Part shown: positions 19,074 to 58,820 of the stretch, piece by piece
How positions within the stretch are numbered: position 1 is the first letter of the stretch
Layout: each line of letters opens with the position of its first letter
Source of the DNA: Owenia fusiformis
Lineage: Eukaryota > Annelida > Polychaeta > Sabellida > Oweniidae
Direction: 5' to 3'
DNA: 64,000 nt
NCBI GenBank assembly: GCA_903813345.2
Contig: CAIIXF020000011.1
Coordinates: forward strand, 29,318,166 to 29,382,165
Notes under the pieces: generated by a model
What the model saw: only the letters and a program-made list of their open reading frames with translations
Told to the model about the DNA's origin: nothing
Databases searched by the model: none
Program-made: the position numbers and the translations under genes

Positions 19074-19329
19074 ATTGATGCTCTGTGTTTGAAATGAAGA
19101 TTGATATCACACTGTTCCAAATAAACACCTGGGGTTAAAACAAAAGTGACATATTACAAAATGCCTCTTGATCTCCACTTCCCGAATTGTAAGCCTACAC
19201 ATTTTTAGAACAAATATGAGTTATTTTACTATGTGTAGCATAATAAATGTTATTTTTTATTTATGACTGATTTATTTGAAATGATTGAGTAAATCCATTT
19301 GCAACTAACTTATCAAATTTGATATCAAA

Positions 19330-19401
19330 GGTTCTATGGTGTAATGGTTAGCACTCAGGACTCTGAATCCTGCGATCCGAGTTCAAATCTCGGTAGAACC
19401 T
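19330..19401 (+). tRNA. tRNA-Gln (CUG)
   Basis: The same body as the neighbouring tRNA-Gln genes, but the anticodon stem is CAGGA/TCCTG with loop CTCTGAA, giving anticodon CTG. It is 72 bases long including discriminator T. It is the only one of the four on the plus strand. Confidence 0.97.
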
Positions 19402-19783
19402 TATATTATTATCTTTTTATGAATAAAAGGTTAAGCAGCACATGAAATAAATATTCAGGATGAAAAATAATGATAAATCATTTTGAGTTTCATTATTTTC
19501 ATTAACCGTGACAATTAAATATTGATTTTATTTCACATGCTTGAGACAAAACCTTTACAGAAAATGCTACTGTGATTGATTGGAAAATTCAGAAAACAAA
19601 TAAAAATTTTGTTGTGGGATGAGTATGTGTATTCTGAAAATAAGTGCCAATAATGAAATTAACATATACATGTACAGGGAAAAGGGAATATTGATAGAAA
19701 ATATTGATTGTTACTAAAACTCTTTGAATATAAATGAGAACAGCTGAAGATGAATTTGTTTCAGGATTACGAAAAAGATACTT

Positions 19784-19855
19784 AGGTTCTACCGAGATTT
19801 GAACTCGGATCGCAGGATTCAGAGTCCTGAGTGCTAACCATTACACCATAGAACC
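19784..19855 (-). tRNA. tRNA-Gln (CUG)
   Basis: The minus-strand copy is identical in sequence to the plus-strand gene at 19330, with anticodon CTG and intact arms. Confidence 0.97.
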
Positions 19856-20191
19856 ATATTTACATTATTATCTAACCTTCAAAGTACAGTTATAAACTAG
19901 ATCACTCCTTTAATTATAGCAAATGTTTCAGTTTTATTGAACATTCAGTTTTACTTGGTATTTAAATAATACTGGTGAGGCCATGCTCTGAAGCATCAAC
20001 ATTCACACTTTTTATTATCTTATTGATGAATTACCATCAAGTTATTCTTCAATAGTGTCATGATGTAGTTAAAAATAGAAAATTTAGATAAAATGAGTGA
20101 CACAATTTAAAAATCAATTATTTGAACATATGGTTGATTGATTGAAATAATTCACCATGTGAACTCAAAATGATAGAAATCACAAAATAGT

Positions 20192-20263
20192 AGGTTCTAC
20201 CGAGATTTGAACTCGGATCGCTGGATTCAAAGTCCAGAGTGCTAACCATTACACCATAGAACC
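20192..20263 (-). tRNA. tRNA-Gln (UUG)
   Basis: The minus-strand copy matches the gene at 19002 over its whole length, with anticodon TTG. It is the last of the cluster. Confidence 0.97.
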
Positions 20264-20977
20264 CTGGTTGAGGCAGGCAATTGTGTATTTACATTTGAGG
20301 CCAGGTGTGATTAAACTACTTATAAATAGTTGTCGGCTGGTTCAAATTATCCATGAGTAAATTCATGTGGTTTTGTTTCATTTCTTGTATAAAAGATGGC
20401 AGTACAAGTTGCATTGACCAAGAATTGGAATATTGTACATGGACACTGTATTGCCAACTGAATTTTAAAGTCAGATGGACGTTCATTATTGGCTATGCTG
20501 CATTCTTGTTGGTTGAGAAATTCAATTAGAGCATGGACATGTTTGATGATAGGTCATTCAATATGGTGAAATTCAGCACGAGATGGACACTTTGGTTTAT
20601 CAAAAACATAGAAGATGAATATACTTTATATGTTATATTTCAGTCAGTTTACTGTTTTCAAGAAACATCTAGAATGAATATGGGATAACAATTTTCAAGT
20701 TTATCTTTGTTCCTTAGTTTACTTACTTATTTTACTCATTGAAATAGGCAGTGAGGAATGTCTTCATTTACATCTTTAACAACAAACATTGGCCTTTGAC
20801 ATTTTAAAAGTGCAGGCAATGGCAAATAAATACACTCTATTATACAATGACAGAGGCTCATGTGATGTAAATATAGTATCAATCAGTACACAAGAATTCA
20901 AAACAATTCAATTCAACCAGAATTGAGAAAGCAATCAAAATTTAATGGTTGGTTTTTCTGGGTCACCCTGTATTTAT

Positions 20978-25500: not shown

Positions 25501-26689
25501 TAACATTTCCACGATCTTCAACTTTTCTTGCAGTAAGAACATCCCATACTGCAACATTACTTTCTGTGTCTTTAGTCATAATATGTCTCTTGTCATTCAA
25601 AACAGTATACTGTCGGATACTGGCTCCACCTTTTATTGTAAATTCTGGTTGGGTTGAAGTTGGAGTTGTATCTTGGTTAACGTCAAAATCTCCCGAATGT
25701 CTTTGACTTTGTATCCTAATTGGCCAATTTTTAATTGTGGAATCAGTCGTTGCGACCCACAAAGATGGTGGTTCAGAATGTGTAAGCTCTAGTTTTAAAA
25801 TTGGTGCTTTTTCTTCGCAAATTAATGTCCTGTTTTCTGGGTTACGGATATCAATAGCCCACACACGATGGTCCCGTCCTCCACTGTATAAGGTTGTGAA
25901 TGTCTCATTGGCTGCCAGAGCCCAAACACCATCATCATGCACGCGCAAAGTTTGCACACAACGTTGTTGTCCTAGTGACCAAAATCTAATGGTTCCATCT
26001 GAACTCCCAGAAATACACTGTGTTCCCTCCCTATTCAAAACCAGGGCTTTAACATTATCACTATGTCCTTTCAATTTCATCAACTTCTGACAGGTTCTAG
26101 GGTCCCATACCCGCAGAACCTTCTCAGTGGACCCGGATACGATAACAGTGCCAGGCTGGTTCATTCCTAGGCTGTATATAGAGTCCTTGTTACCATTGAG
26201 TGATGATGTAGTGACTGTGTTATTTGAAGCTGTAAGAGCTGTTAGTGTGTTTACATCCCACAGGAATATAGCTCTGTCTAAACCAGCTGATGCGACCTGT
26301 TCACGATCTTTCGCATAGGCCAATGCTTTAACATAATCCTTATGTGTGCGTAATGTTGACATACAGAATCCTTTATGGGCATTCCATACTTTGACAGTTG
26401 TGTCACTAGAGGCAGATATAAGAGTTCTTCCCCCGCAACACAGCACAACATCATTGACCCAGTCAGTGTGGTGTTCCATAGATTGAATATACGGATCATT
26501 TGCATTTCTTGTGTTCCATATTCTCACGATAGAATCTCTACCAGCAGTGTAAAGCCGCTGCAACATTGGGTCAAACTTCAGTGAATTTACACCGGAACGG
26601 TGGGTCCTTTCAATTTCATCCCGAATGACATATGATACTTGCACCTTTTTACGTCCACTGCTGCTTGACTGACGAGAATGTTGAGCCAT
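22596..26689 (-). CDS. WDR48: WD repeat-containing protein 48 (USP1-associated factor 1)
   Basis: Activator of the deubiquitinases USP1, USP12 and USP46, acting in FANCD2/PCNA deubiquitination and endolysosomal sorting. Four coding exons are read on the minus strand: 26689-25141, 24631-24448, 24003-23802 and 22694-22596. Borders are GT/AG and phases match. They give 677 residues, the same length as the human protein. The N-terminal eight-bladed beta-propeller is clear ([58 protein letters not shown]). The middle ancillary region includes [19 protein letters not shown] and [13 protein letters not shown]. The C-terminal SUMO-like domains are intact ([51 protein letters not shown]). The ATG lies four bases inside an exon after TTTTCAG|AAAATGG, so an untranslated 5' exon is expected upstream. 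The gene is divergent from TMEM39, with 1.05 kb between start codons. Confidence 0.97.
22795..23040. repeat. Degenerate repeat ending in a C24 tract
   Basis: Reads GGCCAGTGGCCATGATTTGC, then GGGGGTTCGCTCAAACCCAT, followed by a run of about 24 C and GGCTACGGGCC. The style is that of the invertebrate CAGTGGCGTAGCC repeat families. It is inside WDR48 intron 3. Confidence 0.5.
24375..24404. repeat. GCAGAT hexanucleotide repeat, five units
   Basis: Five perfect tandem copies in WDR48 intron 2. The unit length is a multiple of three, but the repeat is not in an exon. Confidence 0.9.
24950..25140 (-). other. WDR48 read-through frame into intron 1
   Basis: If the donor at 25140-25139 is not used, the WDR48 frame continues for a further 62 codons and then stops (the last residues are EKSKKSF). 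The added tail includes [12 protein letters not shown] and a Trp-containing [16 protein letters not shown]. Use of this frame would remove the SUMO-like C-terminal domains. Whether it is ever expressed cannot be seen from DNA. Confidence 0.3.
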
Positions 26690-27742
26690 TTTCTGAAAAT
26701 ACAAAACAATAGGTCAGAAATTTAATAACTCAGATGTAAACAAGCAACAATCTGACAATTGCAGAGTTGCTTCTTCCACTTCTTTGGAATATGTTTGCAA
26801 CTGAACTTATGTCTTTTACTTGAACGGTGTAATTTGCAATGTTTTTTGTATCTGGAGCTAAATTTAAAAATATTTCAATAAATGAAAATGAGGCTGTAAC
26901 TTAGCCTGCCATACTTTTGTCGCACAAACGAAAGGACCACTTTAGTCACCAAAAATCATAATTTATCAACAAGGAGTCGAATGTTATGCTTGCTTTTCAA
27001 GACACTTAACTATAAAAAGGAGTTGTATGAGGGACTCAATATGGGTATTATTTTTCCAATTTCGGGCACCAATAGCACTAGCAGGCCTGTCAACTTGGGA
27101 ACACCCATGAGTGACTTACAAATGATGAACACCTTTCTTCAAAATATTTCGAGAAAAATGCATGACATATACGGTATCCGCGTGAAAAGTCCGATCGAAA
27201 TGCGTTCGTTTTTTTTGGCGTTCAGTTTTGTGCTGTATTGGCGATCACAGTGAAAAAAATGAAAAAATAGACACACTGTCACACAGGTGTAGTTATGCTA
27301 TGCAAAACCTAGCAAACTACGGGAACATTTTCTTAAACAAATTGCTAACGTTGTTATTATAAAATGCAATATAACAAACCTATCGAAGCCAGGCAGATAA
27401 ATCATGAAATGTTAAATTTCTGCCCATAAACTTTCCCTCTTTTGAAATGGCGGTGTAAATTTGGCGTTATGTTTTGCGCATGAAACATTTTAAATGTTTT
27501 ATTATCATATACTTATCAAACCTATTTCTCATGCTGGTAAAAATATTTGTATATGTAATTATGATTAGAACTACATCATATACTGTATGAAATTGGGTAT
27601 AACATATGCCTATTTGAACGCAAATTGAAATCTCATATCAACTTCCGGTTACAAAATATTGTAATATTTATTTTTGTTTCTCCATGATTTTTGGTATTCC
27701 AAGCAAACTAATTCCAATTTAGTAATGTGAACAAAAACAATT
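26690..27742. promoter_or_regulatory. Shared WDR48/TMEM39 divergent promoter interval
   Basis: The 1,053 bases between the two start codons should hold both promoters. ACTTCCGG (27641) is an ETS-type core about 100 bases before the TMEM39 ATG. AAATGGCGG (27445) is a YY1-like box. A copy of dispersed repeat family A sits at 27083-27250, so the promoter interval has been lengthened by an insertion. Confidence 0.45.
27083..27250 (+). repeat. Dispersed repeat family A, copy 2 (short)
   Basis: Contains GCCTGTCAACTTGGGAACAC, ATGAGTGACTTACAAA, then ATGACATATACGGTATCCGC and a GTTCGTTTTTTTTGGCGTTC block. The order matches 63531-64000. The distal half is missing. Confidence 0.6.
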
Positions 27743-30700
27743 ATGCCATCCGGACGTCGTGTATTGCCAAGGACACATGGAGTGTCGATAGGGGCAGTGA
27801 AAGACAAAGTAAAGGATGGCATAAATGGGTATATTTTTTTCTTGATTTCTTCACTGTTTTACTGGTTACACAGTGGTGTAGCCAGGAATTACCAAGTGGG
27901 GTTCTATTTTTTCACCAGCTGGGGGTTCGATTTATAAGGGAGATTCGCACAGCGGAAAAGGTTTCAGCGAACCAATCAAATTTCGGAATTTGACATTGGG
28001 GTTAGGGGAGATGGGTCAAACTTCGATTTATTGGGCTGATTATAAGTCAGTCAGGTACAATTAATTGCTATAAAAAGTAACACGGTATATTGTCAAGTGA
28101 ATATAAAGCTACAGTGGGGAACATAAAGAATTACAAAAGCTATGGAAATTACATGCTGTCGCACATGTAATAAATTCTTACCTCAGTGTATTCAGTGCTC
28201 TATTTTCTTTGTCCTAGTAAGTCCAGATATAGTGGAATTTGTGTCCATAATGACAAATAAAAACTTTAAAATTTGAAGTGGAATTCACATGTTAATGCCG
28301 ACTCTTCAAATGTTGAGGTGATTTTGGAGCCCGATTAAGCCGAAATGTGGATTGGCTCCCAGAAAGCAACATGACACGTGTCAGCTTTCAAAATGCCGTT
28401 CCGCCATTTGAAATCTGTCACGAGTAAATAAGGTTACCTGATGTTGCATTCTGTGAGTCAATCCTCCTTGGATCTCAAACACGGCGATTCATGAAAACAT
28501 TCGCTCGATTTGGTAGGAATTTATCCATCATTTGCTGGTATGAAGCTTTGGATTCATTTATTGTACTACTTAAAGTGAACTGGAATTATTTTTCTACCGC
28601 TTGGGAGAGTTTGAGACACGAAACTTAGAATTAAGCTCATTGTGACAACTTTTGATGGTTGAGGTTTATTAATGTCTCCGACTTTAGAGGAAGTAACAAA
28701 TAAACCCATTGGCCATTTTGAATGGTACTTCCTATGTAAACAAATAATTTTTGATCCCAAATTTTAACACATGTGCGTTATTAGTCTGAATATTTTCATT
28801 CAAAGTTTTCAAAGAAATTTCAGACTAGAGGATATATTCTACCATGAACCCCCTCTCGCTATAGCCATGTTACAGTCTTTACAGCATGGGCTTGAATTTC
28901 TGAAAATGTACAAAAGCCTGTATTCAGGTGTCATGGTAGTTAAAGGTGCAACAATAGAGGTGTTCCGATAGTTCAGAATGACAACAATATTCTCACCTCC
29001 CCTGTTGAAGAGCTCCAATTCCAGGAACAGATTTTTTACCCCCGGGTTTTTTCCCCATTGAAATATACTGAGTCAGATTTTGAATACATCATTTTAGCAT
29101 TATTTGACATTCCTCTTCATGGATATTTGCACAATCGATAAAAATATAGGTCCTTATGGCAATCTGCAAAGCGTTTTCAAGAATATTATTCGAAACTGTC
29201 AATAATCATGAAATGTTCTACGGTGACGTCACTGACCTTGTTCCCGGAAGCTGAGACTCGATGACTTGATATGAAAAGAAGCAAGTTCTCGTGTATATAA
29301 TGCGGGTTTGATGTCATGTTTATATATGTTTCGCTTATATCAATTGTGAGTGATGTAACTTGAAATTAGTATGACCTTTATCATCCCAACAATACGCAAA
29401 AACATGGTTTTAAGGTTGGGAGAATTTGGTTTAATCAACGGACCAATTAAAATTTGTCCCACTTAAAGTGATGCATTGTGGGAGATATTTATGTTAATGA
29501 CCATGTTTTCGTCTATCGCATATTAGTCTATTAGTGCAGAGGGGCAGTTCAACGATCATCGACCAGTGTCAAATTAAAATATATTTAAGTTCAGATATTT
29601 CATCAAGACTAAATATATTTTTATTATTTACAAAGAAACTCCCCGGATGAACATTATTTAAGCTGATATTCCTCGTGAAACATGGCAGATCTTAAAAATC
29701 TATAAGTAGGAGTCCCTTTATGGAAGCTTTGACCTGAATGTAAACTTCTTAATGCTGAAATTGATAGTTTATTAGAGGTGTCATGGATACCAGATTTTGT
29801 TCCGATCTGCAGAATTATGCCCTCGGAATGGAACACGGAACAAAAAGAATTTCGGTTCCGGAACAAGAACATTCTACCCTTTCACAACTTCTGGCCCTTG
29901 AATATCCACAAAACAGCATTTTTCTTTCAATGTTTTGAACGTAAGAGGTTCATTCTTTTTACTCCTTCTCTTTGAAGAGTTTTGACATGCTTTTCGCTAC
30001 CAAATAGACCAGATGATCAAATTATTTTAATCTAATACACACAGTCACTCTGTTCCAAACCGTTCCGAAATTGTTCCGTTCCGAAGCAAAATGTTCCGAA
30101 CCGTTCCGATCTTTTTTTGTTCTGTGACATCTCTATAGTTTATCTATGTATTTTAAGAAAGTAGGTATGTCTAAGAAGATGTTAAGTCAAATGTTGCCCT
30201 GAAAGCTCAGAAAAATGAATTTTCTCTCTACGGGCCTTGTTGCCCCTTTAAAAAGTAAGCAGCAAAACAATCTGGATTTTTTAAGTTTTTTGATCTAAGA
30301 TAACAGAGTTCTGTTTTGACATTCAATCAATTTTACCAGTCGCACATATCATTTATGTGACCAGGGTCACAATGGACATGGTTAAAATGACCCTAAGGCC
30401 AAAACATGATGAATATCTTTTTCAGCCCTCTAAAATGTGACTGAAAAATAATTCAGTTGTACTTTTGGAAAGGTCACCAAACAGACATTTCAGACATTTT
30501 TCCAATTTTCAATATTTATAGTATGAACCTCTCCGGTACTGTTGTACCATTAACACATATAATGCACATTAATTTATCCATTTCAGGAATGCTGACGATG
30601 CAAGTCCCATGGCCTCCTTAGTGGTGCACCCTAAACATGCACATATACCAGAAATACCATCGGAAAGTAATCTCACGTTTGAGGCATTGTTGTTTGTCTT

Positions 30701-33700
30701 CTCTGTAGTGTCAATGTGCATGCAGTATATCAGTATTTACAAGACTGTGTGGTGGTTGCCTCATTCACATGAAATATATGCCTTGGTAAGTGAAAGCAAT
30801 GTTAACATTTTCACTCGTGTCTGATCTCCTTGTAAGATGATAGATAAATTAGAATAGTAAAAGCTGTGTACAAAGAATGTTCTCTAGTCTCTATACTGGC
30901 TGAAACTGTGCCTTGTAGACTGGTAATCCTTACAGAGAGGGTCCATGTTTTGTATTGGCCTAATATGTTTCTGTTACATGTTTCTTTTTGATAAGCCTGA
31001 AAAGTAAACTCTCATTCAAGTTTTGTTCAAATTTGAATTTAACTGCATATTTCTTTGCTTACCATGGACAAAATATGGCTCAAATCCCCAAAACAAGACC
31101 AATTTAAGGGATAATGTCACAACTTTTTGCCCTCCCTCTTGAGGTCTGGCAACATCTTTTTTGAATAATAAAAAAATTAAAAAAATTGGTCAGAAGAATG
31201 TTCACAAGTTCACTAGTTGTGTATGTGTATATTTTATTGTACATATACATGTACTTCATTGCAAAATCACTTATTATTGTTATTTCAGAACTTTTACCTG
31301 ATCAACCCCTATCTTGTGATATTCCTAACTCTGTTGATGAGCAGGCGAGTTGTGTGGTGCTTTGTTAAAGAGGTAATGTCAATACATGTATATACCTGAA
31401 TAGCTATATGCTCTATGTGTTCTCTTTTAAAGGACCATTTTTGAAAGACACCATGTTTTGAAGTTTTCGAATTTAGAATATTGCAAGCTTAGATTAATTG
31501 CTGTTTTGGTGACTTCAATCTTTTTGTTTACTGGAACACCAATGAGATTATTTTTTTCTGAAAACAATCATTCTTTAGACCCTTCTTCCTTTTAAAATGT
31601 ATAACATCTCAATGCATACATATACATTTTTGTTGTTGCAGGTCTTTGGATCGAAGTCACATAATACATTTAACTATTGGATAGTTGAGACTGTTAAAGT
31701 ATGTGTGATTGCCTGTGTAACTGGACTTTTACTATGGAGTGGCTACCACACAATAATGGCCCACAAACTTTTATACTCTTTATATTTATGCTGCCCGTAA
31801 GTAGTTTCTTTTCAAATTAATGACGGACACATGATTTTATTCCATCCTCTGATTATGATATGTGATGTCACAATACAATGAATGATAAGAGATGTATATT
31901 TGAAAAAATTACTCCTAATTATGGTTCACATCTAACAACTTCCAGTACTATAAAATATTTAAGATTATTTTTCCAAAATAGTTGTTCTAAGAAATACTGA
32001 CATATGTTTTGTATGTATATATATAATTTCAGATTGGCAACCTATTTAATATTGTTCGGAGTGAGCATGCGGCCACTTTATGACAAATCCATGGTGTGGC
32101 CGACTCAAGTCTCGGAAAAACCACAAAGTCCTCGACATAAAACAAAAGATCCAGTAATATCTCACGTGTGTACCATGTCCCCAGAACTTATTCGTGAAGA
32201 AGTGGAGTTTTTTAAAAATGACTTTAACAACAGAATTAAGCAGGTGTTGTTTAATTCAATGCTGTGTGCATACTACATGGGATTCATACCTGTCTGTTTT
32301 GCACAGGTGAGATACTAGTAACATAAGATTAACATACATTAACATAATTACATCAATTCTTCAGTAGCAGGCAATAGCAGTCAAAATTCATTCATTATTT
32401 TGAGGAAAATACTTGTTTCTTTTTAACATTAATACCTTATACATATATAAGGGTTATGTACTGGGAGGTTTTGGATATGGGGTTTATTCAGAGGGAGATA
32501 TGCATATCTACCTGAGGGACTATAGGGACCGAAGGTAGATGTGCATATCTCACGAGGGATGAACCCAATATCCAAATCGACCATACATAACTGCTTTATC
32601 CTATACCAAGTAGAGTTTCCAGGGGCATATGGAAATTTCAATAGTACAAGGTGTAAAAATAAACAAATCATTCATATGCAAAGTCTTATTTATTGCATTA
32701 CCGGAAGCGGGAAGATATGCACCGGAAGCGGGAAGATATGCACCGAAGCGGGAGATATGGCGATACGGGATATATCTTACCAACTTATCTCCCTAAAACT
32801 CTACTTGGCATAGGATAAATGGATTTATTGCCAATACATTCAGGAATTATCTTATATCATATCTACTACTAGTATCTATTTTTTAGTCTTCAAGACTAAA
32901 ATAGAAATAGATAAAGGGGGGATTGGGGGTCTAGAAGCAAGACTACTTCTTTGTATGAAGTAAAATATGACAATTCAAACATACATTAAACAGTCCATGA
33001 TTTTTAATTGTAGAACACGCTATACTATGACGTCTGGTGGGTGACGCAACATATCTGCTTGATGTGGCTCTGTGCGTTCCTCATGTTTATGATTCACTTC
33101 TTGCCACCAAAGTACATAGACATGCTTCACAGGTAAAGTATTATTGAGTAATTCACTTTCACATATCAGAAAAACTGGTAAACACTGACTGGTCTTTTTT
33201 CACAGGAATTTTGAATTGTCTTCAGAGAATCTATGAGACCTGTAATCTTAGGATTGTTCAGGATACCATCAGTAGTCAAAAATGCCACTCATTATTTCTT
33301 AGGTTTACAATTTTTGGCAATATTCATGTACTTCTTGATGGAAGTAGGCTTGCAAATTATTGGGTCATGCTACTATATAGTATACTGATTAAGAAAATAA
33401 AACAGTGGAGGGGGGCAACATATTTGGCACATTTGAAAATGAATCCCTCTTTTATTTTTACTTTTCTTATTATTAGGTGTGCTTTACATTTGGGCCGCTG
33501 GCAGAAGGTGGAAGGACGCAATGCACATGTGCCATATCATGCGTAAGTTAACATCTTGTCAAAAGGAGGACGTTGTTAAAATCTTTTCCTGTATTTAACT
33601 GACATGAAACATTTAAACATAAGTGTAAAATTTCTTCACCTCATAACAAGAGTAAGTCTCAACTGTAAAACATGAAGTAAAAGTATTTAATTGTGTATTT

Positions 33701-39700: not shown

Positions 39701-40249
39701 CCTTTAGGATTACAAAAATGTACATTAAAAAAATACATCTTTCGGGTGCATGGGAACCCCTCCTTCCTACCCGTCTATAACAAGCAGGACAAATAGATTA
39801 TATGAGGAAACACACATTTTGAGTAATCAACAGAGCAGGCCACAAGAGTTTGAAAATATATCATGATTTTGAAGGTGTCTTGTATTTGACCTTTGGTGTT
39901 AAACATGCTTTTAATTTCTTTTAATTGAAGATTGTAATAGAATTTTCTCAATGTTAGATCTACATTTTTTTCATTTTTTATGCATCTATTTATCCCTTAT
40001 TTTAAAACTTTTTTCCAGTTTATGTTTCACCAGCCTGTCCGACTTCTTAATTGGATGTTAATACTTACCTGGGCTCTGATTGGCTACCAGTTCTTCATGA
40101 TTGTGCAATTTACGGAATGGAGTCACGTTCTCTCACTCGCTTTTCTCTTATTCGCCACGTATTATGTGTTATTCAAACTAATGAGGGATAGAATGATTCT
40201 TGCCCGTGCATATAAGGAGGAAGAAGAACATCCAACCGGACAAAGTTGA
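27743..40249 (+). CDS. TMEM39: TMEM39 family multipass ER membrane protein
   Basis: ER membrane protein. Vertebrate TMEM39A and worm TMEM-39 act in COPII-dependent trafficking, of the PI4P phosphatase SAC1 and of procollagen respectively. Nine coding exons are read: 27743-27828, 30587-30785, 31289-31372, 31642-31796, 32033-32306, 33014-33132, 33477-33542, 33955-34075 and 40019-40249. All phases join, giving 444 residues (human TMEM39A has 488). The start MPSGRR is the family N-terminus. Family blocks: [32 protein letters not shown], the loop [77 protein letters not shown] and [18 protein letters not shown]. About eight membrane segments are visible. The single gene corresponds to both vertebrate A and B paralogues. 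The last intron (5.9 kb) carries a large insertion. Confidence 0.96.
27874..28010. repeat. CAGTGGTGTAGCCAGG repeat fragment
   Basis: Begins CAGTGGTGTAGCCAGGAATT and contains GGGGGTTCGATTTATAAG, the common invertebrate CAGTGGCGTAGCC style. The right end is unclear. It is in TMEM39 intron 1. Confidence 0.35.
29224..29231. promoter_or_regulatory. CRE octamer in TMEM39 intron 1
   Basis: A perfect TGACGTCA in context GGTGACGTCACTGACC. Possible intronic control site; function inferred only from motif. Confidence 0.3.
29773..30135. mobile_element. hAT-type MITE with perfect 8-bp target duplication
   Basis: Both flanks are TAGTTTAT (29765-29772 and 30136-30143). The ends are inverted: TAGAGGTGTCATG at the left and the complement of TAGAGATGTCACAG at the right. 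The interior repeats GTTCCG/CGGAAC words (GGTTCCGGAACAAG, AACCGTTCCGAAATTGTTCC). It is 363 bp, non-coding, in TMEM39 intron 1. Eight-base duplication and TAGAG ends fit hAT elements. Confidence 0.85.
32453..32591. mobile_element. Hairpin MITE family C, copy 1
   Basis: Inverted arms: GTTATGTACTGGGAGGTTTT and GATATGGGGTTTATTC at the left, and their diverged complements (GAACCCAATATCCAAATC, ACATAAC) at the right. The same arms occur at 41812-41941. It lies in TMEM39 intron 5 and directly abuts the next element. Confidence 0.6.
32595..32819. mobile_element. TIR element with 24-bp ends and internal GGAAGCGGGAAGATATG repeats
   Basis: Ends start TTTATCCTATACCAAGTAGA at the left and the complement of TTTATCCTATGCCAAGTAGA at the right, one mismatch in 24. 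Three tandem units of GGAAGCGGGAAGATATGCAC lie near the right end. No clear target duplication. It is 225 bp and non-coding. Confidence 0.7.
34190..35095. repeat. Left inverted arm of the TMEM39 intron 8 insertion
   Basis: Contains GCACCCGAAAGATGTATT, GGCGGCCATCTTGTCGGCCA, and then two tandem units of about 360 bases (TCAAAGTACAATAACTTCCA ... GGTACCAAAATGAAGC ... TTTGCATAAAATGTGACATC). Its reverse complement forms 38880-39785 with the units in mirror order. Confidence 0.85.
36430..38540 (+). pseudogene. Decayed LINE reverse transcriptase inside inverted arms
   Basis: Pieces in changing frames follow the order of a non-LTR RT family common in marine invertebrates. There is an arginine-rich N-terminal part, then [45 protein letters not shown], the YxDD-like FMDDITVT (about 37890), [14 protein letters not shown] and an IKGKQIPT block. 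After these come [25 protein letters not shown] and finally CPKC ... DGQYRWRHD. Many stops and shifts make it non-functional. It is on the same strand as TMEM39. Confidence 0.75.
38880..39785. repeat. Right inverted arm of the TMEM39 intron 8 insertion
   Basis: Mirror of the left arm: GATGTCACATTTTATGCAAA, GGTACCACTTACAGCTTTCA, CAAGATGGCCGACAAGATGG, then AATACATCTTTCGGGTGCAT at the outer end. It starts near a C13 tract. It ends about 230 bases before the exon 9 acceptor. Confidence 0.85.
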
Positions 40250-42235: not shown

Positions 42236-42427
42236 CTTACATGTACATCACAAAAGTTTATCATAAAATCCATAGTTTGGCCCTTCACCTTTGCAATTAC
42301 TTCACATTTTAGCAAAAAGGCCATAATAAAAAGGTTCATAAAGTCTCTTTACACTTTACACAGACTTAGTATTGTAATTTTAAAAAGCAAAAAAGTAAAA
42401 AAGTATGGACAGTGCACTGGACACCAT

Positions 42428-42472
42428 TTATCCCGTTCCAGGACTATAGTCTATAGTCCTGGAACGGGATAA
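42428..42472. mobile_element. 45-bp perfect palindrome element with 8-bp target duplication
   Basis: Two perfect 22-base arms (starting TTATCCCGTTCC, ending GGAACGGGATAA) surround a single central T. The flanks are an exact 8-bp direct repeat, GACACCAT (42420-42427 and 42473-42480). This looks like a completed transposition of a minimal element. Confidence 0.85.
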
Positions 42473-43042
42473 GACACCATGTACCTCTTACCCATAAATA
42501 TGAGGCTGGCTAGATTTTTCTTATTTTGACATCTTTATCCATATCGTTTGCTTAAAAATGTCAAAAATAAGAAAAACGCAAATCAGGCTCACATGGGGGA
42601 AGTAGAGTTACTTCTTGGAGTAACCTGCAACCATATTTCTGTGCTTCTCATTCATCCAAGCCCCACTAAATAAAGAAATGTTTTTTGCTACTCAACTTTC
42701 AAACTTTCAGAAAGTTTTACATGGGCAACAAGATTAAGCATTATATATGGCGAAGTTTATCAAGTTTCTGCATTAGTTTCACTAATCAGATAAATTATAT
42801 GCGAGTTACATTTCATTTTTATTGTAATAATTCATGTACATTGTACATAATATTCAGTCTTATGATGATTTCATGTCATATGAAAAATATTAATCTTGTT
42901 GCCTATTGAAATTTGGTATGAGGATTTAGAAACCGTGCCTATCAACACGAAAAATCATGAGCTGTGAATATAGTAATATTTTGGAGGATATGCGGGGTTA
43001 GAATGAAGAAATTAAAGCACAAACAATAGCTGATATAACAGC

Positions 43043-46000
43043 ATGACGAATCTTCCCACCTTGTGTGAGATTGGGTTTGGGTCAAGTGAGTTTGACCTGA
43101 AAAAAGTTCCGTACAGGAGTTCGCTTGATGTTGTCAAACATGGCGGTTCAACTCAAAATGTGAATCTCATGAAAAATATTTCATCACAAGAGGCCAAGCC
43201 TGCAGTTGGGTTGGTGAGTGATAAAACAACCTCTGATCTCAAAGCTCTTATTTTAGATGTTATCTTGTTGTTCTTGTTGGTGTCTATGATAACCTATTGT
43301 TATTTTACATTTGTTTTTTAATTTGTTAGATCATTCAATTTCGTTATCAAAATCATGACAATAAAAGGACCTGTCACTTATCCCGTGCAAGGACTATGAC
43401 TATTACATAGTCCTGACACGGGATAACCTGTCACCTCATCTATCATCAACGTGAAAGTCTTACATGGGCAGCATTTATCGCATCCTACAACCCCAACTAC
43501 GTCTAAAGTGATGGTTTGATAAGGGCAGCATTCAGGGGCGGATCTGGGAACCAACAAGCAGGGCCCAAATTTCTGAGAAAAAACATTTTGCGCTCACGTG
43601 GAAAATAAGTGGGCCCAAATTTTGAGGCCCATTTTCTTCAAAATTTGACCTAAAATTAAAAAATAAGGCCTCAGAAGGCCCATTTATGACCAAAAAGGCC
43701 CACCCTTTAGGGCCTTAAGGACTTCTGTGGCTCAACATTTTTTTTGGGCCCAATTTTTCTTTTCTGAGCACACCCAAGGGGGGCCCGGGCCCCTGGGCCG
43801 CCCCTCCCAGATCCGCCAGTGGCATTATTAAACCTGTAGGGCATTGCTTTAAAAACCAATATGTGGCACTGGCGGATTAGGGGGGGGGGGGGGGGGGGCT
43901 GGGGGCCCGGGCCCCCCCTTGGGTGGGCCCAGAAAAAAAAAATTGGGCCCAAAAAAAATTTTGAGCCACAGAAGGCCTTTTTGGTCATTACTGGGCCTTT
44001 TAAGGCCATTTTGAAGAAAATGGGCCTCAAAATTTCAAAATTTTAGGGATTTTAGGGGCCCAAAAGAATAGACACAAAAGATTTTCCTTGGTCAAAATAT
44101 TTCCCATGATCATGGGCTTTCAATTAGAAGGCTATGCAACTCTGTGTTATAACATGAGACCTTCAAAATGAGCAGTTGACCAAAGAAGACATGTCGCTGT
44201 TATCTAAATAAATTGGTTCAGTGTCTGAAAGCAAATCTATACTACTCGTTTCCAATTTTTTTTGTTCATTACAAGCTTTTCTTTAATTGAGAGTGATGTA
44301 ATATTGTAAATTTAGTGGGCTTTAGTAGGGTAACCTTCCAAAAATCAGATTGTTAGGTGATTATCCAAGCAGTTGAACGAGCAAACCACATAATGACACA
44401 TTTATCGTGAGTATTTGTATACAAGATTTACCCTATTTATTCACTATAGCTCAAAATCTTAAATTAACACAGGAACAACCCAAGATTGTGTTTTAAAGTG
44501 ATGTGCAGGTTTAAACATTACATATCTGATTATTTCTAGAAAATATATTTTTCTGGTGCCAGTCATCTCATTTGCCATCAGCTAATATCTTTCAAATGAC
44601 AGGGGTTTCATTAGCAGCAAGCAACAGGCGATTTTCAACGGTTTAATGTTTTCACAAAATTGCCTTTGTTTCTAGGGACTTTTCGACTTTTTCATGTTAA
44701 ATTTATGACTCCCAATAATTTTGCCTGTTGTTTTCATAATTTAACCTGTTGGGTGAAATTCCAGTGAAACCCCTGAATGGATTTATGAACTGTATAATGA
44801 ATTTATATCACCATGTGGGGTTGATTTTTCAAATTACCATCACAATACCCCCATGAATGTGGGGTTGATTTTTCAAATCACCCCAAGTGATATTCCCAGC
44901 ATGCAAGTGGGCGTGGCACCCACCAGAGATTTTGAAATTAGGCTTGCAGCCATCTGAAAATCCATTTGTACCCACTTGAAAATGAGAAAAATAATGAAAA
45001 ATGGCATTTTTGACCAATTTTGGTCTGAATTATGGAAATTAGAATTTTGCACCCAGTTGAGAAAAAATCCTGGGAAGATCACTGACCAAGAAGTTGTTGG
45101 GGTGATTTGAAAAATCGACCCCACATTTTAATGGGGGTACATCACAACTACTTGTGTATTGAAATCAATTGCCTAATGTTTTACTTCAGGGTACCTATAT
45201 ACTGTAATTAATTCAGGCTTATCAATAACCTTTATTTTTCTAAATCCATTGACATACATGGGACATATTTGCCAGGAAGAACATGTATTATAAATTAGTT
45301 AACTGATATCAGATGAGGGGTCCTTAGGATATTATATAATGAATGATATTTCTCGAAAGAAAAGAGATCTAAGAAAATCAATTGCCATTATTTTTTTCCT
45401 TATATCATGGTCATGTGTGCCCCCTCCCCCAATAAGAGAAATTATGATTTAAAAGTAAACTTAGAATATTCAATATTTTTGCCTTAGAAAGTTACAAAGT
45501 TGACTTAACTCGACTTTTAAAAGTTTTCCAGGGGACTGAGCTCTCCATTAGTAGCACACCCCAGACAAATCCTTACATTGTGTGTACCCATAAAACATCT
45601 TAGATTGCTCATTTCTCTCTAAAGCCTAAATAGAATATCTGAGTTTATCGCATTGGTCTTCATTGATAAATTCTCCCTTTTCTTCGTTGCACAAAAGGGA
45701 AGTTCTTTGGAAGGATTAAATACTTGGTTACAAAGGAGTGATTGATTTGCAATGTCAACAGACATTATGGACTTTTCCGATATTGTACCTTAGATCCTCG
45801 ATCAATAAAGTTGGTATGAGGTTCTATAGACTACAGTGTATATTATAAAGGTAATAAAGAATCAGACAATGCTAAATAGTCTATCAATTATTTTTTCTGT
45901 TGCTAATGGGAGATTTAAGTGTTGTTATTTTTAGCAGAGGGTCGCCTAAAGATTATTGCCTAAAGCAATCAGCGAGTCTAGCAGAGAAGATTCATTGCCC

Positions 46001-49000
46001 CCTTTATCATTTCCAGTTTTTTATTAGACTCCAGATGAAATCTGGAGTCTATTGTTTTTGCCTGTGTTCTTATTAGACTCCAGATGTCAATCTGGAGTCT
46101 ATTGTTTTTGCCAGTATTCTTCTTATTATTCTTCTTATTTTTCTTTTTGAGTTTTTTCAATAACTATAGGGTATCCAGTAAAGACCATTATACAGTTTAT
46201 TTAGGTTCAGTATCTAGTTGGTGGGAAATTGGGTCAAATTTTTATCTAGGTCAAAGGTCAAGAACTAGGTCAAATTTTGCATTTTCAACATTCTATCAAT
46301 TATCTTCGTTGTTATTTATCGAAACAACTTTGTCTTTTTTTCATCATGTAGCTTAGAAACAGCCTTTTCATAAGTGTGCCATCAGATTTTTGATTTCTGT
46401 TACCGATTTTGAGATATGGCGTCCGGAAAGTAGGTCAAAACAAAAAGTTCTTCAAATTCAACATGTGAGTTATGAAATAAGTGTAGGATGATCTCAGGAA
46501 TCCGAATCTGCAAACCAAATTTCGATCCGACTTCTGGTTCGGAAGTTATGGCGTTTTGAAAACTCAAAAATCGCTAAATTTTGTGCCCATGTTAATTCAA
46601 TGGGAAAAAAGATTTTTTTGAAGTGAAAAATACGAAATATAGACTGAGTTCAGCTTAATTTAATGAAAGCCTCCAAAAGAAGGAGACCTCAAAAGCCATC
46701 TAGCTTCAGAATTTGGACACCAAAATTCCTAAGTCAAAATCTAGGTCAAATTCAAAGGTTTTCCTTATTTTTGCGATTCTGACACTACACTTCAATTATA
46801 TTCTTCGAAATTGTGTATACATGTAGCCAAGAGTGTGCTAATAGTGTTAGCCTTTTGCCGTCAGAAAGTATTTTGACCCACTTTTGAGATATGGTGTCCG
46901 AAAAGTAGGTCAAAATAAAAAGTTCTCCAAATTTAACGTATGAGTTATGAATTAGGGGTAGAATTTTGTCAGGAATCCGAATCTGCAAACCAAATTTCGA
47001 TCCGATCGGAAGTTATGGCGTGTCCGAAAAGTAGGTCAAAATAAAAAGTTTCCAAATTTAACGTATGAGTTATGAATTAGGGGTAGAATTTTGTCAGGAA
47101 TCCGAATCTTTAAATCAAAGGGGACATGCCATTAAGAGGCCATTCTCGGACTTAGTCATTTTTTTCAAAAGTGTGAAAATAAAAAACCTCATGAAAAGTT
47201 CTTAAAATATTCTGAATAACAAGTTGAATATATATATTTAATGATGGCACAAGTAAAAGTCTGAAAATTAACATGAAAGGAGGGGTTTTGACAGATGCAA
47301 AAGATGGTAGATTTGTGATTAAGAAATAGAGGTTTTTGCAGTAACAACACAATTACCTCAACGTTATCGGTTATGAGAGGCTGAGGACTAAACTTGACAT
47401 AATTTTCAATCTCAGATTATCAGTAGTATCTAACTTAAGCCGGACAGCCACTCAAAATGTATATGGAGCCCATAAGATACATTTTACTAAATTGAAGTCA
47501 CTATTTCTGTTCTTAGTTTCAGAGGATAGGAGGTACATGAACATGCTAAGTTTACCTAGATCACAAGCCTTACCACAAATATAAAGTATATAGGTATAGA
47601 GTTGATATGTGTGAGAACCTTAAACTGCCGATTTCATTTGGGATGAGACGTGTGATTCATGTGTATTTCTAACTTCTTCACATGTGCATGGATCTAAAAT
47701 TGTGGCAGCCATCTTGGATTTGTCATATATGTGGACATGGTTTTGGTTGTGCTGAATTTGTTTCAAAATAACATTTCTTGCATACCTTCGATAAGTGAGA
47801 TAGGCATTTGAAATTAAATACAGATAGCATACTTGACATTTAATGCAGTAAACAGTAATACAATTCATTCTTACATAATAATTGAGTCCAGACAAAAAGT
47901 TGTTATTGTGTTAGTTTAACTAGTATAGTTCAATATACAAGTTCACATTCATTCCATCCTCTTGTAGAAATGAATCTCATATTATTTCATCTCAAATATA
48001 GAACACAAAAAAAACAAAAAACAAGTTTCTATTAATTGCAAAAGTTAGCTTCCATGTCATGACTGGGTTTGGGTTCCGCTTCTAGAGAAAGAAGATTTTC
48101 CCTCTGGAAATATCGTATTGACCATTGCTATACACTCCATATTTAATCCTCCCTGTAAATAACATTAATATACAGTATACAAGTATATATGACATCGAGG
48201 ATCTGGGGTTTGTGTAATGTGAGACATGAGTTGCTACTTTTTGAATCTCATATTCAATATTCTTTCTTTAAACCCTCTTTAATATTTTTAGAGTGGTAAT
48301 TCAATCATTTACCTATTTGTTATTCTTTATCCCATAGTTGGGTAACATGAAAACATATTTATGATATTTTGCAAATGCGTGTAAAAAGTGATATTTGTGG
48401 AATACGGAAAATATTTCACAGATATCACCTTTTGCCAGGGATTTGAAAACTACCACCAATATGATGAGTTTTGTTACATAGTGATTTCACCAAAAATGGT
48501 ATATGATCTTTAAATGACTGTTCGTGAACATCAAAGCTCAAAATTCGCTGAAATTGTAATTTTATAAAGCACAAATGCTTTTTCTTCAATATGATATGCA
48601 TTATTATCAGATATCTTTGGGGGCTAAAAAGGGCCCTTAATGACACCCGTCCTTTCGATCCGACTTCCAGTTCGAAAGTTTTGAAATTCCGGAAAATTGA
48701 TCTGATGGTATCCTGATAGAAAGTCAAGAGTAGAGAAGAAAATATTGAAAAATTCATCCATCCATCCTTCCTATCTGATCCTATCCTTCCTATCTATCCT
48801 TCCTTCGTATCCTTTCCTTCCTATCCTTCCTATCCTCTCCTATCATATCCTTTCTTCCTATTCTGTTCTATCCTATCCTTCTTTCTTATTCTATCCTATC
48901 ATTCCTTCCCATTCTATCCTATCCTACCTTCCTATTTTATCCATCCATCTTATTCTGGATGACTCGGCTTATTTTAGGTGACTGGGCTTAAAAAAGTCTA

Positions 49001-52000
49001 GATCTGGAGTCTGAAATTGAACTTCGTTCAATTTCCAAAGTCTAGTTATTATTAGACTCCAGATGAAAATCTGGAGTCTATTGCTTTCGTCAGTTTTCTT
49101 TATTATTATTATTATTCTTTCAGAATCTTCCTCCTTCCCAGATTTCTCACCAACTAAAAGAATTTACTTTAAGCTGCTTACATGATCAACTAGGGGCAGT
49201 ACCTGGGATGATGGGAAATTAGGTCAAATTTTTATCTACGTCAAGGGTCAAGAACTAGGTCAAATCAAGGTCAAATCAACATTCTGTCAATTATCTTCGT
49301 TGTTGTTTGTCGTAACTACTTCATCTTAGTTTCTACATGTAGCTTAGAAAAAAACAAATCGAGAGTGTGCCATCCGTTTTTTGATTACTCTTAGCGATTT
49401 TGAGATATGGCGTCCTGAAAGTAGGTCATAACCAAAAAGTTCTCCAAATTTAACATATGAGCTATGAAATAAGGGTGGAATTTTCTCAGGAATCCGAATC
49501 TGCAAACCAAATTTTGATCCGACTTCCCGTTCGGAAGTTATGGCGTTTTGAAAGCTCAAAAATCGCTAAATTTGGTGCCAATGTTAAGTCAATGGGAAAA
49601 AAGATTTTTTTGAAGTGAAAAATACGAAATATAGACTGAGTTCAGCTAAATATAATGAAAGCTTTTAAAAGAAGGGGACCTCATAAGCCATCTAGCTTCA
49701 AAATTTGGACACCAAAATGCCTAGGTCAAAATCTAGGTCAAATTCAAAGTTTTTCCTTATTTTTGCGATTCTGACACAACAGATTAATTATATTCTTCGA
49801 AATTTTGTATACATGTAGCTAAGAGTCTGCTAATAGTGTTAGCCTTTTGCCGTCAGAAAGTATTTTGCCCCATTTTTGAGATATGGTGTCCGAAAAGTAG
49901 GTCAAAATAAAAAATTCTCAAAATTTCACGTTTGAGTTATGATTTAAGTATAGAATTTTCTCAGGAATCCGAATCTGCAAACCAAATTTCGATCCGACTT
50001 CCGGTTTGGAAGTTATGGTGTGTCCGAAAAGTAGGTCAAAATAAAAAGTTTCCAAATTTAACGTATGAGCTATGAATTAAGGATAGAATTTTCTCTGGAA
50101 TCCAAATCTGCAAACCAAATTTCGATCCGACTTCCGGTTCGGAAGTTATGGCGTTTTGAAAGCTCAAAAATCGCTAAATTTGGTGCCCCATGTTATGTCA
50201 ATGGGAAAAATATTTTTTTGAAGTGTAAAATACGAGATATAGACTAAGTACAGCTAAACATAATGGAAGCCCATAAAAGAAGGGGACCTCAAAAACTTCT
50301 AATTTTGAAAATTTGGACAACAAAATGCCTAGGTCAAAATCTAGGTCAAATTCAAAGCTTTTCCTTATTTTTGCGATTCTGACACTACACTTTAATTATA
50401 TTCTTCTAAATTGTGTATACATGTAGCCAAGAGTGTGCTAATAGTGTTAGCCTTTTGCCGTCAAAAAGTATTTTGACCCACTTTTGAGATATGGTGTCCC
50501 AAAAGTAGGTCAAAATAAAAAAATCTTCAAATGTAACGTATGAGTTATGAATAAGGGGTAGAATTTTATCAGGAATCCGAATCTGCAAATCAAATTTTGA
50601 TTCGACCTCCTGTTCGGAAGTTATGGTGTTTTGAAAGCTCAAAAATCGCTAAATTTGCTGCCCCATGTTATGTCAATGGGAAAAAAGATTTTTTTTGAAG
50701 TGTAAAATACGAGATATAGACTGAGTACAGCTTAATATAATAAAAGCCTATTAAAGAAGGGGACCTCGAAGGCTACTTAGCTCCAAAATTTGGACACCAA
50801 AATGCCTAGGTCAAAATCTAGGTCAAATTTATAGTTTTCCCTTATTTTTGCGATTCTGACACTATATTTAAATGATTTGCTTTAAAATTTTGTATAGAGG
50901 TTGCAAAGAGTATGCTAATAGTGTTAGCGTTTTGCCGTCAGAAAGTATTTTGACCCACTTTTGAGATATGGTGTCCGAAAAGTAGGCCAAAGTTAAAAGT
51001 TTTCCAAATTTAACGTATGAGTTATGAATTAAGGGTAGAATTTTCTCAGAAATCTAGATCTGCAAACCAAATTTCGATCCGACTACTTGTTCTGAAGTTA
51101 TGGCGTTTTGAAATCTCAAAAATCGCTAAATTTGGTGCCCAATGTTAAATCAATGGGACCGAATAATTTTTTGAAGTATAAAAATACGAGATATAGAATG
51201 AGTACAGCTAAACATAATGAAAGCCCATAGAAGAAGGGGACCTCAAAAGCTACTTTCCTTCAAAGTTTGGACACCAAAATACCTAGTTCAAAATCTAGGT
51301 CAAATTCATAGTTTTTTTTATTTTGCGATTCTGACACTACACTTCAATGATATTCTCCGAAATTTTGTAAACTTGTAGCAAAGAGTGTGCTCATAATGTT
51401 AACATTTTGCCGTCAATAAGTTTTTTGACCCACTTTTGAGATATGGTGTCCGAAATGTAGGTCAAAATAAAAAGTTCTCCAATTTTAAAGTATGAGTTAT
51501 GAATTAGGGGTAGAATCTCCTCAGGAATCTGGATCTGAAATTAAAATTGCAATCCGACCCCCGGTTTAGATTCTACGCCATTTTGAAGTTTGAAATTCGC
51601 ACTTGCCAGTATTCACGATGCAGATTGATCAAATATACTTTCAAAACTTCCTGCATACCCTACTTTACCTCTCTACCTACTCAGCTACTTATTTGACTAC
51701 TTACTCAATTACTTAATTAGTTATTACTTCCTTAGCAACTTACTCAGCTACTAACTCAGGTACTTACTCAGCTACTTACTCAGCTACCTACTCAGCTTTT
51801 TACTCAGTTACTTACTCAGCTACTTACTCAACTACTACTAAGGTACTTACTCAGCTAATTACTCAGTTACTTACTCAGCTCTTTACTGATCTATCTAGGT
51901 CAAATAAATCTGGAGTCTTAAATTGAACTTGTTCAATTTCACAAATCTAGTTCTTTTTCTTTTTTCTTTCTTTCTTTCTTTCTTCCTCCTAACAAATTTT

Positions 52001-55000
52001 CTCTCCAACAATAACATCTTACTTAAACCAACTTACATAATTAACTAAGGAATGTTTCTGGCTTTCTGGGAAATTAGGTCAAATTTTTATCTAGGTCAAA
52101 GGTCAAGAACTAGGTCAAATCCAGTACTTTGTCACTTTTTCCCATTATCTCGGTCGTCCTTCAATATTTTTGATCCGGGTTTTTTTCATTGTGTTCCTCA
52201 TAAAAAAGTAGAAAAGCTAGGGTCGATTTAGTTTTTTGGTATCTCAAACGGATTTCGAGATATCAGTGTCCGAAAACGAGGTCCAAAAAAAAGTTCTCCG
52301 AATCCAATGTCCAGGATATCAGTCTTATAGGAAATTTTCTCAGGATTCCGAATCTGAAAACCAAATTTCGATTTGACTTCTGGTTCAGAAGTTATGGCGT
52401 TTTGAAAATTCAAAAATCGCTAAATTTGGTGCCCCATGTTAATTCAATGGGAAAAAATATTTTTTTGAAGTGTAAAATACGAGATATAGACTAAGCACAG
52501 CTAAACATAATGGAAGCCCATAAAAGAAAGGGACCACAAGACCTTCTTTTCATAAAAATTTGGACACCAAAATGCCTAGGTCAAAATCTAGGTCAAATTC
52601 AAAGTTTTTCCTTATTTTTGCGATTCTGACACTACAGATTAATTATATTCTTCGAAATTTTTTATACATGTAGCCAAGAGTGTGCTAATAGTGTTAGCCT
52701 TTTGCCGTCAGAAAGTATTTTGACCCACTTTTGAGATATGGTGTCCGAAAAGTAGGTCAAACTAAAAAGTTCTCCAAATTTTACGTATGAGTTATGAATT
52801 AAGGGTAGAATTTTCAGGAATCCAAATCTGCAATCCAAATTTCAATCCGACTTTTGGTTCGGAAGTTATGTCGTTTTGAAAGCTCAAAAATCGCTAAATT
52901 TGGTGCCCCATGTTATGGCAATGGGAAAAAAAATTTTTTGAAGTGTAAAATACGAGATATAGACTAAGTACAGCTTTACATAATGAAAGCCTATAAAAGA
53001 AAGGGACCTCAAAAGCTAGCTAGCTTCACAATTTGGACACCAAAATGCCTAGGTCAAAATCTAGGTCAAATTTATAGTTTTAACTTATTTTTGCGATTCT
53101 GACACTACACTTTAATTATTTGCTTCAAAATTTTGGATACAGGTAGCAAAGAGTGTGCTAATAGTGTTAGCCTTTTGCCGTCAGAAAGTATTTTGACCCA
53201 CTTTTGAGATATAGTGTCCGAAAAGTAGGTCAACATGAACGTTTCTCCAAATTTAACGTATGAGTTATGAATTAAGGGTAGAATTTTCTCAGGAATCCGA
53301 ATCTGCAAATCAAATTTCAATCCGACACTCGGTTTGGAAGACTTGGGGTTTTGAAAAATTAAAAAATTGGTATTTTGATATCCCATGTTATGTCAATTAT
53401 CTTTGTCACTATTCGTCGTTATTCCTTTATCTTTCTTTCATCATGTAGCTTAAAGACAGTCCTTTCATTATTGTAACTGTCTTTTTTGATTACTCTTACC
53501 GATTTTGAGGAATGGCGTCCGGAAAGTAGGTCAACACAAAAAGTTCTCAAAATTTAATGTATGAGTTATGACACAAACGTAGAATTTTCTCAGAAATTCG
53601 AATCTGCAAACCAAATTTCGACCCAAATTCTGGTTAGATAGTTATAGTTGTTTGAAGTCTCGAAAAGTCGATATTATGATATCCCCATGTTAAGCCAATG
53701 GAGACGAAGATAACTTACTTAAGAGTTGTCTAAATGTCTGTATTCTAGATGACTTAGCTTATTCTGAATGGCTCAGCTTACAGTATTTTGGATGACTCAG
53801 CTTAAAAAAAGTTTTAAATCTGGAGTCTTAAATTGAACTTGTTCAATTTACATTTTTATTATTTAAATCAATCCAATACTGAATTTTCTTCTGTCTTTTC
53901 TGATATTGATGATTAAATACAGTGAAACCTGTTTAATCGGAACGCTACTGGACTGGCCAAAAGTGTTCGGATTAGCATGTGTTCACATTTCTCAACATGT
54001 GAGTATATAGGAGATTGGGACCATATACAATGTAAAATTGGGACCAAAAAAGTTTTCACATTGAGAGGTGTTCAGATATACAGGTTTCCCTATACATGTT
54101 TTTAAATAGAACTCATCATAAAGAAGTTTAAAAATGTGAAATAGCCAACATATCAAATTATAATGCAAACATAGATTATGATTTCAATTTAGTTGATTCT
54201 ATTGCTTTTCACATAACATATAATAGATAATTATGTACTGAAAATGATCACTTTCAGTAAAGTTTCAGTTTGTATGAAAAATTTCAACATTTCATGATTA
54301 TTGGGCTACTCAAGATTGGTTCTGAATAGGGCAACATACCAGTGATCTTCCCATGCAGCATCAGAATACCCAGGGTCTACATTCTGTTGAAAATCCCCAA
54401 ATTACCAGGCAACCTTTTCAATATCTGTTTGCACCCTACCAAAATTGAAATAGACGAAATATTATCATTTTTTACTAAAACACATGAAATAAGAATTTAG
54501 CACAGCATTGAGAAAAAATGGGAAGCTCTCTGAAATACCATGGCCAGCCCTGTATTATGATCTACATGTTGAAATAATATTTTATAATCTTACTTTTATT
54601 TTTCTTCAGAGCCCAAGGGATAGAATAAAGAGTGAGCTGGAATTAAGACGATTTAAAAGTGATCTTAGTTTAAATGACCTTGGTTACCATACCAACTGTC
54701 AGGTCCAGAACCTTCCCAGGACTGCCCTCAATATACGAGATGGGTCAAATGGTCTTAGTTACGATTCCCTGATGTCGTTATTCAAACTAGAGCGAGCCAG
54801 AACAGCACCTGCATTTCCACTTCATATTCCGAAAGAGCTTCCAATAATTCAGATATCTGATGATTATAATTTGCCGTTGGATGAAGAAAAATTAAAATGG
54901 ATCGACAAGCTTAATTGTTGGATGCCTGAAAAAGGGGTGAGTTTCACATTGCATTTCTTTCATTCTATTTGAATATCTTTAACTTAACTCTCCAAAGTAG

Positions 55001-58650: not shown

Positions 58651-58820
58651 ATGGGATAAGTAGAGATTATCCTATATGAGGTTCAGGATATTGGGATTAT
58701 CCCGAGGCTAATATAATATATTTGCCCGAGGGCCGCAGGTCCCGAGGGAAAATATATTATATTGGCCAAGGGATAATCCCAATATCCTGAACCGACTATA
58801 GGATAATATGTTTATCCCAT
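58651..58820. mobile_element. 170-bp hairpin MITE, ATGGGATAA ends
   Basis: Inverted arms of about 75 bases: ATGGGATAAGTAGAGATTAT and TTCAGGATATTGGGATTATC at the left, mirrored at the right (GGGATAATCCCAATATCC, TTTATCCCAT). The centre is GAGGGCCGCAGGTCCCGAGG. Its TTATCC ends recall the elements at 42428 and 32595. Confidence 0.7.

Follow-up and report, generated by a model that had tools for sequence, protein, structure and literature searches.

Two short palindromes in the stretch of DNA analysed here (the window; 64,000 bases, 34% G+C, without N) are each bordered by an exact 8-bp target site duplication, and we tentatively interpret them as excision footprints left at two independent insertion sites by one cut-and-paste transposon family that duplicates 8 bp of its target. 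This reading is based on the exactness of the duplications at both sites, which are unlike in sequence, on arms that are shared and centres that are not, on arm-derived duplications within those centres, and on the tiny size of the units. We consider transposon scars more likely here than the tiniest of mobile elements. A preliminary description of the same DNA had reported the two palindromes with their perfect 8-bp target duplications, with coordinates and sequences that were exact to the base, and the footprint reading is one that it did not raise.

Copy 1 is a 45-bp palindrome (42428-42472) whose 22-nt arms pair perfectly on either side of a single T, as had been described, and copy 2 is a 49-bp palindrome (43378-43426) with a 7-nt loop in which 19 of 21 arm pairs are complementary. 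All four arms have TTATCCCGTnnnAGGACTAT in common and can be written as the pattern TTATCCCGTNNNAGGACTAT: each begins with TTATCCCGT, continues with a triplet (TCC, TCC, GCA and GTC, respectively) and ends with AGGACTAT. Seventeen of the first 20 positions are therefore invariant, the three variable ones are adjacent (positions 10-12), and the two positions that follow the 20 differ. The centres are unlike, with AGTCT (5 nt) in copy 1 and GACTATTAC (9 nt) in copy 2, and across each of them runs a tandem duplication of arm sequence, 7 bp long in copy 1 (CTATAGT twice) and 6 bp long in copy 2 (GACTAT twice). For copy 2, an arm match of such length is found in 1.7% of random 9-mers, which makes it improbable for random filler. 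For copy 1, a match as long as AGTC is found in 21% of random 5-mers, which is weak alone and not significant, and its 7-bp tandem repeat is partly a consequence of the self-complementary end of the arm.

Table 1. Coordinates and composition of the two palindromes and their flanking duplications (positions in the window).
Feature	Positions	Strand	Remarks
Copy 1, left target site duplication	42420-42427		GACACCAT; 8/8 identical to 42473-42480
Copy 1, left terminal arm	42428-42447	+	first 20 nt, TTATCCCGT-TCC-AGGACTAT
Copy 1, centre	42448-42452		AGTCT, inside the 7-bp tandem duplication CTATAGT CTATAGT
Copy 1, right terminal arm	42453-42472	-	exact reverse complement of the left arm
Copy 1, right target site duplication	42473-42480		GACACCAT
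Copy 2, left target site duplication	43370-43377		CCTGTCAC; 8/8 identical to 43427-43434
Copy 2, left terminal arm	43378-43397	+	TTATCCCGT-GCA-AGGACTAT
Copy 2, centre	43398-43406		GACTATTAC; GACTAT is a tandem repeat of the arm's final six bases
Copy 2, right terminal arm	43407-43426	-	minus-strand reading TTATCCCGT-GTC-AGGACTAT
Copy 2, right target site duplication	43427-43434		CCTGTCAC

Upstream of the palindromes is a relative of TMEM39, with frames at 32001-32318 and 39941-40249 on the plus strand, and the two copies lie 2.2 and 3.1 kb past the end of the last of these frames (39941-40249). A gene for a WD-repeat protein occupies 24950-26713 on the minus strand. Judged by these genes, the host is probably an animal. 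Elsewhere in the window, four glutamine tRNA genes (anticodons TTG and CTG) are predicted within 1.3 kb, with both strands represented (19002-20264), and a LINE-like open frame of 548 aa has a reverse transcriptase domain (8034-9680). Tandem arrays with units of 133 and about 475 bp, several of which start with GTGTCCGAAAAGTAGGTCAAAATA, are seen at 49886-53365, with a similar stretch at 46869-46917.

With 100 dinucleotide shuffles of the whole window as the chance control, an exact 8-bp direct repeat around a unit of 20-150 bp with an exact 8-nt inverted repeat was found twice in the window, at the two palindromes, and not once in all the shuffles together. When 10-nt ends with at most one mismatch were accepted, copies 1 and 2 were again the two matches in the window, against a total of one in the 100 shuffles, and with 12-nt ends and at most two mismatches the same two copies stood against a total of two. 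The loosest setting (20-nt ends, at most four mismatches) gave 15 matches in the window and 25 in total in the 100 shuffles, and it is uninformative because 13 of the 15 were structures other than copies 1 and 2, 12 of them in two tandem arrays and one an AT-rich 21-mer. Tandem arrays with units of 133 and about 475 bp, several of which start with GTGTCCGAAAAGTAGGTCAAAATA, are seen at 49886-53365, with a similar stretch at 46869-46917.

Among 11 non-overlapping hairpins of the window (score at least 13, loop at most 15), an exact direct repeat of 2-12 bp was present at the edge of only copies 1 and 2, in both cases of 8 bp. The sequence TTATCCCG occurs five times on the two strands of the window, where 0.87 occurrences are expected by shuffling, and four of the five are the ends of copies 1 and 2. 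No further arm was found in the window within four mismatches of the 17 fixed positions, and at five to six mismatches the matches were scattered and chance-like. The fifth TTATCCCG is held by a 142-bp near-palindrome at 58666-58807 with the inner sequence GAGGGCCGCAGGTCCCGAGGG, and the marker repeat of this near-palindrome matched none of the viral contigs. A further palindrome, AGACTCCAGAT..ATCTGGAGTCT, was noticed by eye in tandem units at 2770-2877 and 46013-46125, which have opposite orientation and common flanking bases.

Copies 1 and 2 are two separate insertions. The 400-bp flanks of one copy match those of the other in a single 21-bp stretch (90% identity, E 2.5e-4) and in weaker short matches with E values of at least 0.13, so that hairpins inside a larger duplicated repeat, an alternative that the preliminary description had raised against itself, are disfavoured and were not borne out. 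The 21-bp stretch is a direct repeat at 42710-42730 and 43453-43473, 3' of each palindrome and at unequal distances from them. We also rejected a composite element of 999 bp with the palindromes as its ends, since the outer 8-mers differ (GACACCAT as against CCTGTCAC) and each palindrome has a duplication of its own. A transposase is the best explanation for insertions that each come with an exact 8-bp duplication, and two unlike target sequences that are both 8 bp long indicate, by established transposition chemistry, that this transposase staggers its target cuts by 8 bp.

The course of events that we propose would begin with the insertion of a longer element whose terminal repeats read TTATCCCGTnnnAGGACTAT, an event that would have created the 8-bp duplication; the duplication is observed, and the longer body is our supposition. 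The transposase would then have made a widely staggered cut some 20 nt inward of each end, so that terminal-repeat ends stayed on the flanks, in parallel to the 17-nt stagger known from the P-element transposase. Error-prone end joining may afterwards have sealed the broken ends, which are the same sequence inverted, and added a filler of a few bases copied from the arms; the observed central tandem duplications of 7 and 6 bp are of the kind that slipped or templated end joining can produce. What stayed behind would be, from one side to the other, target duplication, some 20 nt of terminal repeat, a short filler, another 20 nt or so of terminal repeat and target duplication, with the mobile body gone. 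In rice, filler was present in 58 of 94 putative DNA transposon excisions, with a mean of 13 bp (PMC4423477).

The closest parallel for such a course is offered by the P element, whose transposase cuts one strand 17 bp inside 31-bp terminal repeats with a stagger termed unusual and atypically long, inserts at sites 8 bp apart on the two strands, and leaves donor breaks whose repair proceeds through homologous recombination or end joining (PMC7776569). From this cut geometry we infer that both duplications and the terminal-repeat ends can stay behind. In Drosophila P, the 10-bp binding sites of the transposase are placed inward of the 31-bp repeats (PMC7776569), so a remnant consisting of terminal-repeat ends alone would be without binding sites. 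The palindromes resemble P-element excision (P superfamily, THAP9 transposases; PMC7776569) in the 8-bp duplication and, on the proposed course of events, in a long stagger that would leave terminal-repeat ends and in end-joining repair; they differ from it, and this counts against footprints, in their TTAT..ATAA ends, which are unlike the CA..TG termini of P, and in the roughly 20 nt of arm that are retained, compared with 17 in the P-element cut. We therefore liken the putative excision to that of P elements in its mode of action and do not claim membership in the P superfamily. Palindromic scars from P excision occur in flies. Among the titles and abstract openings of the literature found, mostly open-access, for P-element footprints with filler, none dealt with P-element footprints.

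Other observations also weigh against the footprint interpretation. In cell assays P excision was accompanied by flanking deletions, which were small when the fly transposase was used and larger with that of zebrafish (PMC10983969, preprint), and flanking DNA was deleted in 43 of the 94 rice excisions (PMC4423477), whereas both duplications are fully intact at both of our sites, which weakens the interpretation. An arm search of the 64-kb window that allowed up to four mismatches at the 17 fixed positions revealed no longer element with the ends of the palindromes, and two scars 0.95 kb apart without an intact copy nearby are somewhat unexpected.

The palindromes might instead be mobile themselves, as micro-MITEs that consist of little more than terminal repeats and are moved in trans with insertion at an 8-bp stagger, a possibility that we take seriously and hold to be less probable than footprints. 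The coincidence of exact 8-bp duplications with the borders of the tiny units speaks for it, as does the adjacency of the variable positions 10-12 (by arithmetic, a chance of 18 in 1140), which could form a spacer between two boxes contacted by protein; a transposase acting on such units would recognise a bipartite arm made of TTATCCCGT, the 3-nt spacer and AGGACTAT. There are precedents for small size in GC42 of yeast mitochondrial DNA, a 42-nt palindrome that is reported to proliferate rapidly and is flanked by short direct repeats (PMC4478555), and in Introner families, whose median lengths start from 30 nt (PMC9860276). GC42 differs from our palindromes in being mitochondrial and GC-rich, in having AG or ACT flanks instead of 8-bp duplications and in its mechanism; Introners, which are likewise very short and non-autonomous and in some cases have duplications and terminal repeats, are spliced introns, and the palindromes lie past the last recognised TMEM39 frame. 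At less than 50 nt, a family of this kind would fall under the floor of detectMITE and could be overlooked (PMC4726161). Against mobility, the 64-kb window holds no third copy, and the two copies seen have unlike centres and spacer triplets, for which two separate source elements would be needed. In a single mobile micro-family a common centre is to be expected, and the difference between the centres of copies 1 and 2 accordingly favours footprints. A duplex of 45 bp is far below the persistence length of DNA, so its ends should be hard to pair by looping, and a single transposase complex could probably not easily bring together ends that are 45 bp apart. The earlier proposal of tiny elements moved by a transposase is thus retained as far as separate insertions with 8-bp duplications are concerned, and the unshared centres of the two copies fit loss of a body better. 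We consider less likely than not, though well worth attention, the more far-reaching reading of an undescribed nuclear family of micro-transposons of 45-50 bp, in which each unit would comprise solely a pair of 20-nt transposase boxes (9 + 3 + 8 nt) with a short centre between them; served by an 8-bp-duplicating transposase, they would lie below the floor of a standard MITE finder and rank among the smallest nuclear mobile units.

Loss of the body could also have come about without a P-type cut, if a longer element, or else an element whose long inverted repeats form hairpins, had collapsed internally after insertion, by replication slippage or interrupted gap repair, with the outermost 20 nt or so of each end staying in place. 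The anatomy to be expected is alike, with intact duplications, shared arms and unrelated short centres, and internal deletion combined with faulty repair has been put forward as the origin of known non-autonomous P-derived units that carry 8-bp duplications (PMC1562414). These units, the P-MITEs of Anopheles gambiae, are non-autonomous and have, like the palindromes, both terminal repeats and perfect duplications of 8 bp, and unlike them contain about 100 bp of P ends and a central region, compared with about 20 nt per end and a centre of 5-9 nt here (PMC1562414). Such a collapse seems improbable to us, as random deletion should give unequal arms and the equal arms of about 20 nt in both copies are left unexplained by it. 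An even lower probability is given to an assembly or sequencing artefact, in which a longer palindromic element would have been collapsed at its hairpin in the record. Polymerases can skip strong hairpins, and the two palindromes have folding energies, computed as RNA, of -35 and -30 kcal/mol; however, two separate sites with equal arm length, unlike centres and clean borders, in a window that contains no N, make this explanation very improbable.

We assign the palindromes to no superfamily, since the termini of hAT, of Merlin and of P-type elements (CA..TG) are all absent from them. An 8-bp target site duplication, as found at both copies, is a trait of the P superfamily, of hAT and of Zisupton (KDZ). 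The ends of hAT elements begin YARNG, and the palindromes begin TTATC. Judged by zebrafish Pdre2 and Drosophila P, P superfamily termini are CA..TG, and the palindromes have TTAT..ATAA. Drosophila P begins CATG. Pdre2, a P-group element, has CATACC at its start and GGTATG at its end (PMC10983969, preprint), and Zisupton makes 8-bp target duplications (PMC12730594). As far as can be told from the present alleles alone, the anatomy of 20-nt arms, filler and both duplications is compatible with P-type long-stagger excision, although P assays give flanking deletions. The preliminary description had suggested a hAT- or P-like transposase: hAT is contradicted by the terminal motif, and P agrees with the 8-bp duplication and with the footprint anatomy and disagrees at the CA..TG termini. 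No transposase domain, THAP included, was detected by Pfam in the 24 frames that were scanned out of 58 open frames of at least 85 aa in the window, with an E-value cut-off of 0.001 or 0.1 depending on the scan, a result that also counts against footprints.

MITEs of the hAT superfamily share the 8-bp duplication, and their ends are given as CA in a rice table (PMC4423477), in contrast to TTATC here. Merlin elements have 8- or 9-bp duplications and terminal repeats from 24 bp upward, but 5'-GG ends (PMC8101967), and the palindromes start TTAT. The duplication length of MULEs, 8-10 bp, covers the 8 bp seen here, whereas their terminal repeats are typically longer than 100 bp and the whole palindromes measure 45 and 49 bp; this length is not absolute, being less than 60 bp in 2 of 14 mosquito families (PMC5225508). 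Cleavage by Muta1, a mosquito MULE, seems to take place outside the terminal repeats (PMC5225508), and cutting of that type would leave no arms such as these. Both palindromes have the terminal inverted repeat and target duplication of MITEs, and of the several similar copies typical of MITEs the window contains two, with unlike centres. Their size is below the 50-800 nt range of detectMITE (PMC4726161), which agrees with the earlier remark that they are smaller than usual MITEs. Four further candidates were rejected: KolobokP, rich in bivalves, whose solo units mainly have 3-5 bp duplications (PMC9587614); IS3EU, with a 6-bp duplication and TAYGG ends; Kyakuja, with a 7-bp duplication; and CMCT, with ends that are mostly CA..TG and duplications of 2-5 bp (the last three, PMC12730594).

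Two other elements of the window also have 8-bp direct repeats. A hAT-looking element of 363 bp at 29773-30135 (29765-30143 with its repeats) has ends resembling TAGAGGTGTC / TAGAGGTGTCA, with three mismatches in the first 13 positions, and is flanked by the exact 8-bp direct repeat TAGTTTAT. An element of 294 bp at 44838-45147 has TACCCCCATG ends, with two mismatches in the first 13, as well as inner inverted repeats and the exact 8-bp direct repeat CATCACAA.

Pattern searches of viral contigs and prokaryote genomes yielded no relative that combines paired ends with an 8-bp duplication. Among the viral contigs, which also serve as an outside control, none of 95 matches to TTATCCCG-N20-45-CGGGATAA was flanked by an 8-bp repeat, and exact repeats reached 4 bp at most; the arm with all 17 fixed bases had no match, and of the 14 matches with 15 fixed bases none had an inverted partner (at most four mismatches) in the surrounding stretch. 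None of the five arm matches in prokaryote genomes had an inverted partner in the surrounding stretch either. In the literature as searched, the only match in which TTATCCCGT co-occurred with a terminal inverted repeat was on barley Ac/Ds, and among the matches listed for shortest, smallest or palindromic elements, in titles and abstract openings of mostly open-access papers, a family of these palindromes is not described.

If the two palindromes are footprints, they would testify that a transposon was once active whose ends we could not match to any described family, and they would suggest that the long staggered cut of P elements works with other termini too. Counted across a whole genome, scars of this kind could then document excision. 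Should the palindromes instead be mobile micro-elements, a transposase would be able to move 45 bp, which would challenge how the two ends of an element are thought to get paired, and such elements would have been overlooked by MITE finders with a 50-nt floor.
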